DNA of 64,000 nucleotides from the NCBI RefSeq assembly GCF_900129685.1, contig NZ_FQWM01000005.1:7501-71500 (forward strand), given 5' to 3'. Within the stretch, counting starts at the first letter, position 1. Each line of letters starts with the position of its first letter. The notes under the pieces were generated by a model. It saw only the letters and a program-made list of their open reading frames with translations, had not been told where the DNA came from and ran no database searches. Both the position numbers and the translations under genes were made by a program. The stretch is from Cognatishimia maritima (GTDB lineage: Bacteria > Pseudomonadota > Alphaproteobacteria > Rhodobacterales > Rhodobacteraceae). Shown here in pieces: positions 8,299 through 11,803 of this stretch.

Positions 8299-8354
8299 CT
8301 GCTCTCCTTGTTCAAAATAAAGCATAGCGCAAAAAAGATATTTGACGAAAGCTC

Positions 8355-8383
8355 TTGATCACCCCTACGACTCCTTTTATAGA
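8355..8383 (+). promoter_or_regulatory. Candidate sigma-70 promoter upstream of tRNA-Val
   Basis: TTGATC (8355-8360), a 17-base spacer and TATAGA (8378-8383) form a good housekeeping promoter. Transcription would start near 8390 and run towards the tRNA, but it would meet a terminator-like hairpin at once (8395-8420). Confidence 0.6.
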
Positions 8384-8394
8384 CGCCTCCACCA

Positions 8395-8420
8395 GCGCGG
8401 ACTTCCGCGCCCTTTTTTCT
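8395..8420 (+). terminator. Terminator-like hairpin between promoter and tRNA-Val
   Basis: GCGCGG (8395-8400), loop ACTT and CCGCGC (8405-8410) are followed by CC and six T residues. No plus-strand gene lies upstream since dinB ended at 7437, so it either attenuates the tRNA transcript or ends a very short RNA. Confidence 0.6.
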
Positions 8421-8448
8421 TGAAGGGCTAGGCTCGCAAAGGTTTCAT

Positions 8449-8523
8449 GGGCGATTAGCTCAGCGGTAGAGCACTTCGTTGACATCGAAGGGGTCACAAG
8501 TTCGATCCTTGTATCGCCCACCA
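8449..8523 (+). tRNA. tRNA-Val (anticodon GAC)
   Basis: A complete 75-base cloverleaf: acceptor GGGCGAT / ATCGCCC, D arm GCTC-AGCGGTA-GAGC, anticodon stem CTTCG / CGAAG with loop TTGACAT (anticodon GAC, reading GUC and GUU), T arm ACAAG-TTCGATC-CTTGT, discriminator A, and an encoded CCA. The L36 gene starts 73 bases downstream and could be read from the same transcript. Confidence 0.97.
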
Positions 8524-8595
8524 TGAATTCATTGCCCCATTCTGGGGTGCCCGATTAACCAGGCGCACGTCGCGCCGCGAAATGAGGAGATTGCC

Positions 8596-8721
8596 ATGAA
8601 GGTAAAGAACTCGCTCCGCTCGCTCAAGCAGCGTCACCGCGACTGCCGTGTTGTGCGCCGTAAGGGCCGCGTTTATGTGATCAACAAAACGCAACGCCGG
8701 TTCAAAGCACGTCAGGGCTAA
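8596..8721 (+). CDS. ykgO: 50S ribosomal protein L36, type B (zinc-free form)
   Basis: A 41-residue, very basic ribosomal protein starting [15 protein letters not shown]36 binds 23S rRNA at the base of the L7/L12 stalk. The zinc-binding form has three cysteines and one histidine; here only one cysteine remains (RDCRVV), so no zinc site can form. The length and the insertion between the RDC and KGRVYV blocks fit the type B family. GAGGAG precedes the ATG and a strong terminator follows. In many rhodobacters this is the only L36 gene. Confidence 0.95.
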
Positions 8722-8745
8722 GCCCGACTTATACCGCGAAATTCT

Positions 8746-8780
8746 AAGGCCGCTCGGAAACGAGCGGCCTTTTCTTTTCG
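8746..8780 (+). terminator. Intrinsic terminator after the L36 gene
   Basis: A nine-pair stem (GGCCGCTCG 8748-8756, CGAGCGGCC 8761-8769) with a GAAA tetraloop is followed by TTTTCTTTT. Confidence 0.92.
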
Positions 8781-8796
8781 GCATCCTCTACTCCGC

Positions 8797-10446
8797 TTAT
8801 CGACCAAGCAGCAGTTGCACCATGGTTTGCTGATCCACAAACCCTGTCACGCTAAGATCGCGCGATTTTTGGAAACGCCGGATCGCACGTCGTGCATCGC
8901 GGTCAAAGGCACCGTCAACTTTGCCGGTGTCAAAACCAAGACTGCGCAGACGGTTCTCAACCAACAGCCTCACGGCCGAATTCCCTGCCACAGCATTCTC
9001 TGCGGCTTGTAGACGTTTACGAGTTTCCTCGTTGTTGTCAGACTCGTTGGTCAATTGATCGATCCGCGTCTTCGCAGCATCAGCGAACACGCCGTCAGGA
9101 TGTGCGTTGAGGAAGGCACGATAGCTTTGAACGGTGTTTTTCTCCCGCGCTTCGTCCCATGCTGCACGTTCACGTGCATCCATTTCAGCGCGGCGTTCTG
9201 CTTCGATCGTGTCCAATTCTTCGCGTGCGATGTCTGCAAACAACCCATCGGGGAATTCTTTCAAATAGCTGCGATATCCCGCTTCTGTATTGCGAGCCCC
9301 GGTATCCTGCCAAAAGGCGCGGTCCCTTGCGTCTTCAATCTCGCGACGGCGGCGCGCTTCTTCTTCCAGTTCGGCTGCACGGCGCAACGCGAATTCTTGC
9401 ATCACCTGCAACTGATCACGATCAAGGTATCCATGCGCTTCGCGCCCCTGCGTGTCTTGCCATGCGCTGATTGCGCTGCGGGTGGCTGGGCCAAAGACGC
9501 CATCAATGCCACGCGGATCAAACCCCAATAGGGACAGATCGCGCTGTACATCGCGGCGTTGCTCGCGCGAGAGATTTAGCGCCTCTTCACGCTCTTTCAG
9601 GCGCGCCTCACGGTCATTCTCACGCTGAGAGAGCAAGCCCTTGGCATTCGCCGCAAACTGCCCGTTTGGGTAACGCTCCAGATAAGATCGCAAAGCCGCG
9701 TCTGATCCGATTTCACGCACCGCGTTCCAGAACGCAACCTCGCCACTGTCGCGGGATATATCGCGATTATCAGAGCGTGCCTCTGTGGGTTCGCGCGGCG
9801 TGAACGCAACGCTGCCTGAGACAAACCCTGTGACCTCAAGATCGTCAATGCCGCGCTCGATTTGACGCGTCGTGCCGCCCTCAGCCAGCAAGTTGTTCAG
9901 CGCAGCCTGCACATCCCGGCTGCTCCCCTTCAGAACGGTGGTTCCCTGCAATGGGGTATAGGTCAGCGTTTCGAAATCAAGACCGTCCACATCCTCGATG
10001 GGACGAGGGTCTTGGATCAAGGCCAAAACCGCGCGCCCGGCAGCGGCATCAAGCGCTTCATCAAACAGCGGTATTGGAAGCGCCTTCGCCCCAATATCAA
10101 ATCGATCCGGTGCGCGCGCTTCTTGCGACAACAGCCACGTCTGGCGTGGATCAGACAGCAAATGCCCGCGCACCACGATTACCACGCGATCAGCGCCATT
10201 GTCCGTGGTGGAATTAAGTGTAAACAGGGCCGCGCGCAACTCACTAAGGGTCGCGTTCTTGACCTCGATCACTTCAAATTCAGACTTTCGCAGGGCGTTT
10301 GCCATCGAAGATATACGCGCATCCCGTGGCAAGTCCTCCAGTGATCGGTAATCCTGCTGGTCAATAACAACGGCGACATCTCTGGCCGCAAGCGTTTGGG
10401 GCGCAAGCAACACCAAGGTCGCCACGGCGGCTTTCAAAATATGCAT
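8797..10446 (-). CDS. Exported caspase-like (peptidase C14 fold) pseudoenzyme with peptidoglycan-binding domains
   Basis: A 549-residue protein with a signal peptide (cleavage near TLAARD, residue 22). Residues about 23-150 follow the caspase-like pattern: VVIDQQDYRSLEDLP, then ALRKSEFEVIEVKNAT, then VVIVVRGH where the catalytic His would be (H95). The catalytic Cys position reads ALIQDPRP, and the whole protein has no cysteine, so it should be proteolytically dead. Two peptidoglycan-binding type 1 domains follow (about 294-345 and 488-548). Between and around them lie three copies of a 35-residue repeat (about 238-273, 378-412, 428-463) with the pattern W-x(n)-YxxYL-x3-PdGxFA-x2-A. GGAGAAG precedes the start. 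Likely a periplasmic wall-associated scaffold. Confidence 0.75.
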   Translation of the reverse strand: MHILKAAVATLVLLAPQTLAARDVAVVIDQQDYRSLEDLPRDARISSMANALRKSEFEVIEVKNATLSELRAALFTLNSTTDNGADRVVIVVRGHLLSDPRQTWLLSQEARAPDRFDIGAKALPIPLFDEALDAAAGRAVLALIQDPRPIEDVDGLDFETLTYTPLQGTTVLKGSSRDVQAALNNLLAEGGTTRQIERGIDDLEVTGFVSGSVAFTPREPTEARSDNRDISRDSGEVAFWNAVREIGSDAALRSYLERYPNGQFAANAKGLLSQRENDREARLKEREEALNLSREQRRDVQRDLSLLGFDPRGIDGVFGPATRSAISAWQDTQGREAHGYLDRDQLQVMQEFALRRAAELEEEARRRREIEDARDRAFWQDTGARNTEAGYRSYLKEFPDGLFADIAREELDTIEAERRAEMDARERAAWDEAREKNTVQSYRAFLNAHPDGVFADAAKTRIDQLTNESDNNEETRKRLQAAENAVAGNSAVRLLVENRLRSLGFDTGKVDGAFDRDARRAIRRFQKSRDLSVTGFVDQQTMVQLLLGR

Positions 10447-10534
10447 ATTTACTTCTCCAGATCATCCGGGACACTGGGTCCCATTCTGGAGCAGAAACGC
10501 CCGACTACAAAATTTCGTTCCTAAATCAATGGTT

Positions 10535-10558
10535 GCACCGGCGAAATGAGGCCGATGC
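10535..10558 (-). terminator. Stem-loop after the CoA-ligase operon
   Basis: GCATCGGC and GCCGGTGC, read leftward, form an eight-pair stem (one wobble pair) 25 bases after the last gene of the operon. There is no T-run, so it may be a 3' stabilising hairpin rather than a true terminator. Confidence 0.35.
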
Positions 10559-10582
10559 GAGGGTTTGTCGAACAGTCAAAGC

Positions 10583-11803
10583 CTAGTCGTATTTGCGCTG
10601 ATCCTCGATCACGATGCCATCGTTTGGCAGCGAGCCAGGCGGAACAATTTCGATCTGCCCTTTCAGCTTCAATACGCTGACGACGCTGTCCAGATAATGG
10701 TCTGCATTGTCGGCAATTGTCTCTAGTTGAACCGTCATCACATCGGTCTCACCTTTGCGACTTGCCACAATCCGCGCCTTGGACACTTCGCTGTGACGCG
10801 CGACCAGCGCGGCGACCTGTTCAGGACGTACAAACATGCCTTTGATCTTAGCGGTCTGATCCGCCCGTCCCATCCAACCACGGATACGCATATTGGTCCG
10901 GCCACATGGGCTGGTGCCAGTCAAAACAGCAGACAAGTCCCCGGTGGCAAACCGAATGAGGGGGTAGTCGGGGTTCAACGTGGTCACCACAACTTCGCCA
11001 ACCTCACCCTCGGGAACAGGGTTGCCCGTGCCCGGCGTGACGATTTCGACGATAACATGCTCGTCCAATATCAGGCCCTCTTTGGCCTCTGTCTCATAGG
11101 CAATGTTGCCAAGATCCGCTGTCGCGTAGCTTTGCAAGCAGGTGATCCCACGGTCTTCGTAATAGGCGCGCAACGACGGAAAAAGCGCGCCGCCGCCCAC
11201 TGCTGCTTTGGCAAAGCTGAGGTTCTTGCCCAGTGCGTCTGCTCGATCCAGAATGATCTTCAAGTAATCTGGCGTGCCCGCATAGGCTGTCGCGCCCAGC
11301 GCCTCGGCGGCCTCAACCTGCAGGTCGGTTTGACCTGTTCCAGCCGGAATAACCGACGCCCCAACCGCGCGCGCGCCATTTTCAAAGATCATGCCAGCTG
11401 GTGTGAGGTGGTAGCCAAAACAGTTCTGAACGACGTCACCCCGACCGATGCCGCAGGCGTGCAAAAACCGCCCCATTCGCCACCAGTCGTCACTCGTGCG
11501 ACCGGGCTCATAGATGGGACCCGGGGATTGAAACAGATGCTCGAATTGCCCTGTGGTTGCGGCGGCAAAGCCGCCAAATGGCGGGTGCTTTCTCTGTGCA
11601 GCCACAAGATCGGATTTCCGAAGCACCGGCAATTCTGCAAGATCAGCGACAGAAGTGACCTCAGATGCATCTACTTCACGATAACATTCGGCGTTCCCGG
11701 CCAAAGCCTTTGCACGCGCGATCTGCTGCGGAAGCCTCTCGGCGATGTCCTTTGCGCGTTCATCGTCCGAGCGCGTTTCCAAATGGTCGTAATAGCGGCT
11801 CAT
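10583..11803 (-). CDS. Phenylacetate-CoA ligase family protein (PaaK-like)
   Basis: A 406-residue adenylate-forming ligase expected to activate a carboxylic acid with ATP and CoA. PaaK-like features are FQSPGPIYEPGR, the CFGYHLTPAG segment, GTPDYLK, LQSYATADLG, the hinge-region RFATGDLS and the C-terminal RIRGWMGRADQ followed by KIKGMFV. It is slightly shorter than PaaK. No other phenylacetate-pathway gene is present, so the substrate is probably another aromatic or short acid. It is the last gene of the leftward operon with the Liv-type importer, 50 bases after livF, suggesting it activates the imported compound. Confidence 0.85.
   Translation of the reverse strand: MSRYYDHLETRSDDERAKDIAERLPQQIARAKALAGNAECYREVDASEVTSVADLAELPVLRKSDLVAAQRKHPPFGGFAAATTGQFEHLFQSPGPIYEPGRTSDDWWRMGRFLHACGIGRGDVVQNCFGYHLTPAGMIFENGARAVGASVIPAGTGQTDLQVEAAEALGATAYAGTPDYLKIILDRADALGKNLSFAKAAVGGGALFPSLRAYYEDRGITCLQSYATADLGNIAYETEAKEGLILDEHVIVEIVTPGTGNPVPEGEVGEVVVTTLNPDYPLIRFATGDLSAVLTGTSPCGRTNMRIRGWMGRADQTAKIKGMFVRPEQVAALVARHSEVSKARIVASRKGETDVMTVQLETIADNADHYLDSVVSVLKLKGQIEIVPPGSLPNDGIVIEDQRKYD

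Follow-up and report, generated by a model that had tools for sequence, protein, structure and literature searches.

A family of predicted exported pseudo-caspases in Rhodobacteraceae lacks the catalytic cysteine motif and carries peptidoglycan-binding domains

A protein family found across the Rhodobacteraceae combines a predicted caspase fold with repeats and two peptidoglycan-binding domains, and has lost the catalytic-cysteine motif of caspases throughout. The member analyzed here is encoded on the reverse strand (8797-10446) of the window, by which we mean the whole 64,000-nucleotide stretch of Cognatishimia maritima DNA that was studied. Its translation has 549 residues and, as a preliminary description of this DNA had stated, not a single cysteine. 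The fold, the family-wide motif loss, the grouping of the members in one clade and the domain order are established computationally. The protein is almost certainly not a cysteine protease, and very probably an exported pseudo-caspase. The preliminary description had already proposed the latter, which agrees with the caspase fold, the signal-like N-terminus of all assessable members and the loss of the cysteine and pocket motifs across the family. We also lean towards the fuller proposal that a caspase inactivated once now acts as an exported, wall-anchored scaffold or regulator; taken by itself, this predicted role has about even chances. As to which bacteria lost the cysteine, the loss appears to be shared by the entire clade; a single event is the simplest account, and the pocket motif disappeared too.

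Materials and Methods

The host bacterial family, Rhodobacteraceae, was taken from the named loci. Family members were selected by blastp at E 1e-30, and the 115 matches, minus 13 rows identical over residues 60-400 and plus the window protein, form a 103-member set that leaves out loci L001, L027 and L057 (the window's own). Since this selection favors the closest relatives, 20 lower-scoring members were added as a check, among them a short reading frame (L207) and a locus at a contig end (L204). The 30 intact caspases used for comparison (L058-L087) are the loci of the best-scoring C14 matches in a draw of 149 genomes. A quick tree was built from 50 of 70 diverse members and the 30 intact caspases, and a further subset holds 60 of the 68 rows left after a 75% identity cut of 80. 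The profile searches of the bacterial family and of the class scored the three best candidates per genome, so that copy numbers are lower bounds. Flanking genes were scored by tblastn with the neighbors from the window, which replaced a greedy gene calling that was noisy. Associations of the gene with C14 matches and with the neighboring ligase were computed on 147 of the 149 genomes (G009-G155 on an inferred genome list, leaving out G000 and G156). Strong C14 matches were defined by score alone, with matches weaker than 1e-15 (14 genomes including G000) counted as not strong.

Domain architecture

The features of the protein and of its surroundings are given in Table 1. Pfam PG_binding_1 matches two stretches of the window protein (2.8e-27, 95.1 bits against a cut-off of 23), which bears out the two peptidoglycan-binding domains of the preliminary description. 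Peptidase_C14 is borderline on residues 23-95, with E 2.3e-4 and 21.3 bits against a cut-off of 21.4, and reaches 21.5 bits when the protein is run together with its frame neighbors. At a limit of E 2e-4 the same model recovers 36 of 81 members; the window member, in the cut form used there, is not included. None of the NCBIfam models reaches its own cut-off for the window protein. By a simple hydropathy rule, all 101 assessable members have a signal-like N-terminus with a hydrophobic core, and by a similarly simple rule 99 of them have a small-x-small site close to the start of the domain.

Table 1. Coordinates of the pseudo-caspase features and of neighboring genes (window positions unless a locus is named)
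Feature	Residues	Position	Strand	Basis or remark
Signal-like sequence	1-21	10384..10446	(-)	MHILKAAVATLVLLAPQTLAA; hydropathy rule
Pseudo-caspase (p20-like) domain	22-216	9799..10383	(-)	AlphaFold model; MALT1 match by fold and PDB profile
His95, caspase catalytic His position	95	10162..10164	(-)	Aligns with the invariant His of 30 intact caspases
ALIQDPRP, former catalytic-Cys loop	142-149	10000..10023	(-)	MAFFT alignment; DxCR motif search
QGTT (family consensus QGVT)	167-170	9937..9948	(-)	Pocket segment next in intact caspases is absent here
TPR-like repeat 1	237-270	9637..9738	(-)	Repeat units; helix pair in AlphaFold models
Peptidoglycan-binding domain 1 (PG1)	286-345	9412..9591	(-)	PG_binding_1/2; SltB3 by sequence; CtpB by fold
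Long helical linker	346-373	9328..9411	(-)	AlphaFold models
TPR-like repeat 2	376-409	9220..9321	(-)	Repeat units; AlphaFold model
TPR-like repeat 3	427-460	9067..9168	(-)	Repeat units; AlphaFold model; BamD overlap of model residues 190-240
Peptidoglycan-binding domain 2 (PG2)	489-546	8809..8982	(-)	PG_binding_1; SltB3 by fold
AMP-dependent (PaaK-like) ligase, frequent upstream neighbor		10583..11803	(-), same strand	Pfam AMP-binding
Hint-domain (Hint_2) genes, unrelated to the pseudo-caspase		L185:6795-7778; L186:7068-8051	(-)	Genomes without the pseudo-caspase

Caspase fold of the N-terminal domain

Structure prediction gives the p20-like domain a caspase fold, the pattern that the preliminary description had recognized at the N-terminus. 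The AlphaFold model, made from 81 aligned sequences, has a mean pLDDT of 93.8 and a pTM of 0.44, the latter probably low owing to a flexible domain order. MALT1 is the top Foldseek match (E 6.4e-8); caspases and the bacterial GSU0716 come next. The VIA fold comparison superposes 179 residues on MALT1 paracaspase (Z 17.1, rmsd 3.3 A), with caspases-6 and -7 at Z of about 15. A profile of 35 N-terminal domains searched against the PDB also finds MALT1 paracaspase (E 9.4e-7), along with caspases-1 and -4, and in this alignment the GH of the family falls on the GH of MALT1. The comparison of a predicted structure with C14 peptidases had been suggested beforehand as a check on the reading; the prediction is caspase-like, and a non-caspase fold was not seen.

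The domain has a conservation pattern of its own. Residues D23, R87, W104, Q167, T170 and G207 are conserved in 84 to 103 of the 103 members and occur in at most 3 of the 30 intact caspases, which argues that a different constraint is maintained on p20. The mean majority frequency of p20 is 0.44, against 0.69 for PG1, 0.69 for repeat 2 and 0.66 for PG2, and columns of at least 95% identity number 5 of 194 in p20, 15 of 60 in PG1 and 8 of 37 in repeat 2, so that p20 may be the less important part. From the alignments, p20 appears to be under a new constraint, and the wall-binding part under a stronger one.

Loss of the active site across the family

Not one of the 54,325 residues in the mature chains of the 103 aligned members is a cysteine. 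The 20 lower-scoring members have one mature cysteine between them, in a single protein (L188), near the former His loop and off the catalytic position. In a plain motif search, DxCR is present in all 30 intact caspases and in none of the 103 members, while the pocket motif DGxGxxS is found in 27 of the 30 and in 1 of the 103, and is absent from the window protein. A MAFFT alignment of members and intact caspases puts a gap in the Cys column for 98 of 103 members and in the A.DG and T..Q.P columns for all 103, with the NDA motif replaced. In the window protein the site reads ALIQDPRP, just as reported before. The QGVT consensus that follows is held by most members (Q in 95, G in 102, V in 97 and T in 90 of 103).

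When hmmalign is used with a profile built on the 30 intact caspases, 79 of 103 members, including the window protein, have a gap at the Cys position and none has a cysteine there. Because this procedure fails to place a large part of the domain's C-terminal half, in the window protein as well, the gaps it counts do not independently prove local deletions, and the plain motif searches were added beside them. The looser motif A.DG, sought anywhere in the domain, occurs at other places in 25 of 103 members and does not discriminate. The motif loss is firm across these searches, and the exact place and size of the putative deletions depend on the alignment. An alignment of homologues at the Cys position had been suggested earlier, and all 103 members lack the cysteine. 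A recent mutation of the window copy alone is excluded, with no intact-dyad member among the 123 examined.

The His at residue 95, which the preliminary description had found retained in the window protein, is shared by 62 of the 103 members; another 28 have Arg. A fast tree places 13 changes at this position, at least eight of them forced by well-supported branches, and His95 was lost repeatedly, mostly to Arg. Most simply, the cysteine would have been lost once and the His would have drifted afterwards. His is still the commonest residue at position 95, which may count slightly against full freedom there. Across the 103 members, no Ser, Thr or Asp is conserved in the former Cys loop (residues 142-149).

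For comparison, we counted cysteines in other proteins of the same loci. The exported transporter-binding protein has 185 in 20,646 residues, with cysteine in 50 of 50 chains, and pyrF in the flanks has almost none, 10 of 12 chains being without. Since pyrF chains are mostly free of cysteine, a cysteine-free chain needs no special cause.

Repeats and peptidoglycan-binding domains

The W...YxxYL...PdG.FA unit is present in the three copies described earlier, at W240, W379 and W430. It had also been called novel-looking, which no longer holds, as a repeat HMM finds the unit in 14 of the 30 intact caspases and weak matches make it look TPR-like. These matches comprise the YfiO profile (32 of 61 members at E 0.01, the window member not among them), NCBIfam OM_YfiO against the window protein (E 2.8e-4, far below the model's own cut-off) and CpoB in a profile search of the PDB (E 7.8e-4, a weak match). 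The AlphaFold model of residues 232-549 (pLDDT 95.3) has helix pairs at the repeats. BamD overlaps this model over 50 residues at 1.1 A with Z 7.4, a score that helical repeats can reach by chance, and Foldseek finds no match for it at E 0.001, the best being a BamA-BamD fusion at 8.2e-3. The likeness to the TPRs of BamD/YfiO and CpoB lies, through weak matches, in the helix-pair repeat, whereas here a peptidoglycan-binding domain separates repeats 1 and 2.

A PG_binding_1 match is present in 81 of 81 members, and the two domains match SltB3, CtpB and SleB. PG1 resembles SltB3 by sequence and CtpB by fold (Z 10.1 over 69 residues), and PG2 resembles SltB3 by fold (Z 11.1 over 65 residues). Domains of the PG_binding_1 type may not all bind peptidoglycan. 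As 8 of the 30 intact caspases also carry PG_binding_1, the architecture would be older than the loss of the active site, or parallel to it.

Distribution and phylogeny

With a full-length family profile at E 1e-60, matches are found in 174 of 394 Rhodobacteraceae genomes, drawn from 393 genera. Most of the listed matches span nearly the whole model, with partial ones among the rest. A single match, itself a lower bound, is seen in every one of the 174 genomes except two. The class search, covering 385 genomes (at least five of them Rhodobacteraceae), gave no full-length match outside this bacterial family. Two matches outside it (L171 on G584:C7 and L170 on G676:C39) span only repeat 1 and the first peptidoglycan-binding domain, and this pair is therefore also present in other proteins. 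The order search at E 1e-30 found the gene in 86 of 196 genomes, and those listed all belong to the Rhodobacteraceae. Within the genus, seven of nine genomes carry it, and the closest named relatives are from Cognatishimia species, at identities of at most 69%. Scanning the genome contigs with a single-protein query revealed no relative.

In the tree, the family members group together and are separated from the 30 intact caspases with SH-aLRT 99; this single clade fits one old inactivation. By this placement the intact caspases are distant homologues in a separate clade.

L119, whose record carries the name Maritalea mobilis (Devosiaceae by NCBI rank), sits among Roseicyclus in the tree, and either the record name or the gene history may be wrong. 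Distant copies, 26-28% identical in the seven best matches, are found on Paracoccus plasmids such as NZ_CP045074.1; in the 20 listed of 30 plasmid records, the matched genes are annotated as peptidoglycan-binding or hypothetical, not as caspases. At G122:C250:4432-5388, a frame of 341 residues matches the model at positions 208-526 alone; the match lacks the p20 part and may come from a member without p20 or from a broken assembly. A copy at G848:C11:19077-19688 looks broken, with p20 only and an in-frame stop.

Gene neighborhood

In the window, the ligase gene and ABC transporter genes of the branched-chain type precede the pseudo-caspase gene on its strand; the gap to the ligase is 136 bases, and the pseudo-caspase gene faces rpmJ. 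After 13 of 80 loci were dropped for short flanks, 67 family loci remained. In 47 of them the ligase lies upstream in the same orientation, no more than about 620 bases away (150 or less in 41), and in the other 20 it was not found. The transporter genes lie further upstream, with the ATPase in 52 of 80 loci and no room for it in six more. Presence of the ligase is not linked to presence of the pseudo-caspase (44 of 56 genomes with the gene against 63 of 91 without it, p 0.25), which suggests an inherited neighborhood; an obligate partnership with the AMP-ligase genes is not supported. A promoter scan of positions 8300-11000 found none, and terminator-like sites there are no more frequent than in shuffled sequences. 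A role in anti-phage defense was rejected, with no PADLOC match at E 0.01. In the two genus genomes without the pseudo-caspase, the site beside rpmJ holds a gene for a 327-residue Hint_2 protein; the ligase follows in one of them and was not found within the fetched stretch of the other.

Proposed function and alternatives

We propose that the protease center of an ancestral exported caspase-repeat protein of the Rhodobacteraceae was lost, in the simplest case a single time. This would have removed the catalytic-Cys motif and the substrate-pocket loop and left the caspase fold in place as a folded module. The signal-like sequence points to export by Sec, and the peptidoglycan-binding domains would hold the protein on peptidoglycan in the periplasm. 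There, the dead caspase domain and the TPR-like helices could provide binding surfaces, making the protein a wall-anchored scaffold or regulator of envelope proteins. It counts against the proposal that the gene is dispensable, being absent from two of nine genus genomes and without a match at E 1e-60 in 220 of 394 genomes of the bacterial family.

The p20 domain could instead be a folded vestige, the working part being the C-terminal array of repeats and peptidoglycan-binding domains, for example as a wall spacer or tether. Its low share of near-invariant columns beside PG1 and repeat 2, the up to 13 changes at His95 and the G122 match without p20, if that is a true member and not a broken assembly, are what such a vestige would leave. 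We nevertheless consider it rather unlikely, since p20 keeps a residue set that intact caspases lack and all 20 lower-scoring members align with at least 180 p20 residues, a count from a selection that favored full length and possibly under-saw p20 loss. In view of the close ligase and the upstream ATPase at most loci, the protein could also assist the ABC transporter and the AMP-ligase from the periplasm, its gene being co-transcribed with theirs. This explanation is improbable given the independent occurrence of the ligase, its absence from 20 of the loci and the 136-base gap in the window; shared descent would account for the gene order.

The preliminary description had also considered a decoy, which would inhibit intact caspases in the manner of c-FLIP. 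The fold is the same, dead caspase homologues can regulate caspases (accessible text of PMC3501461), and 19 of 56 gene-bearing genomes also have a strong C14 match. The idea fares poorly, however: at E 0.01 the pseudo-caspase is the sole C14 match in the 3.28 Mb genome of the window, and 37 of the 56 gene-bearing genomes are without a strong one. Across 147 genomes strong matches accompany the gene in 19 of 56 cases against 39 of 91 without it (odds ratio 0.68, p 0.30), and the pocket motif that would help to hold a substrate is missing. With no other C14 match in the genome and no association elsewhere, a decoy is very unlikely. That the protein retains enzymatic activity by means of a different nucleophile is barely credible; GH95 is kept in 62 of 103 members, but the former Cys loop offers no conserved candidate and the His drifts to Arg.

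Relation to known systems

Pseudo-caspases as such are already known; what appears to be new here is the family-wide loss of the active-site loops and its spread. Among the best matches in the open-licence literature, we found no description of a cysteine-less, wall-binding pseudo-caspase family. The closest known systems, judged from the accessible portions of both sources, include the bacterial pseudo-orthocaspases (PMC6426788) and SyOC of Synechocystis (PMC7889975). As described in the accessible text of PMC6426788, the pseudo-orthocaspases have a p20 caspase fold without the His-Cys dyad, are abundant in Alphaproteobacteria, and in FS variants have TPRs behind p20. Their dyads are substitutions (YS, YA, FS, QC, HA), whereas the Cys loop and the pocket motif are missing here. 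The proteins studied here also have signal-like and peptidoglycan-binding parts, whereas the word 'peptidoglycan' is absent from that paper. According to the same portion, the survey described 582 alphaproteobacterial pseudo-orthocaspases, 14 of them in Rhodobacterales, by their substitutions. Its definition asked for a p20 match below E 1e-4, other residues at the dyad positions and the absence of a p10 domain, and sequences in which His or Cys aligned to a gap were filtered out. Through this filter or the score limit it would probably have missed most of the present family, which suggests that pseudo-caspase counts requiring an aligned dyad overlook a large family. Eleven caspase homologues with a peptidoglycan-binding domain are reported in the accessible part of PMC3501461.

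The family may exemplify how marine bacteria put a death-protease fold to new use in the cell envelope. Dead LytM regulators have a fold unrelated to that of caspases. They serve as our working analogy, since in examples such as DipM (accessible text of PMC10336132), EnvC and NlpD a dead hydrolase fold regulates cell-wall enzymes. In the broadest version of our proposal, a single old loss of the active-site loops would have turned a caspase domain into a wall-anchored, protein-binding envelope regulator throughout a large bacterial family. Such a regulator would parallel the dead LytM proteins with a caspase fold, and would belong to a class discarded by surveys whose filters demand a filled dyad. 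We put this version forward tentatively, as possible but doubtful.

Nearer at hand, the intact C14 proteins of the Rhodobacteraceae resemble the family in fold and, in the proportions given above, in the repeat unit and PG_binding_1. They differ in keeping GH, a DACR-type cysteine and the DG..S pocket motif, as well as in their separate clade. In 14 of these 30 proteins the open frame has exactly three cysteines past residue 60, a number that would fit one catalytic cysteine and a disulfide.
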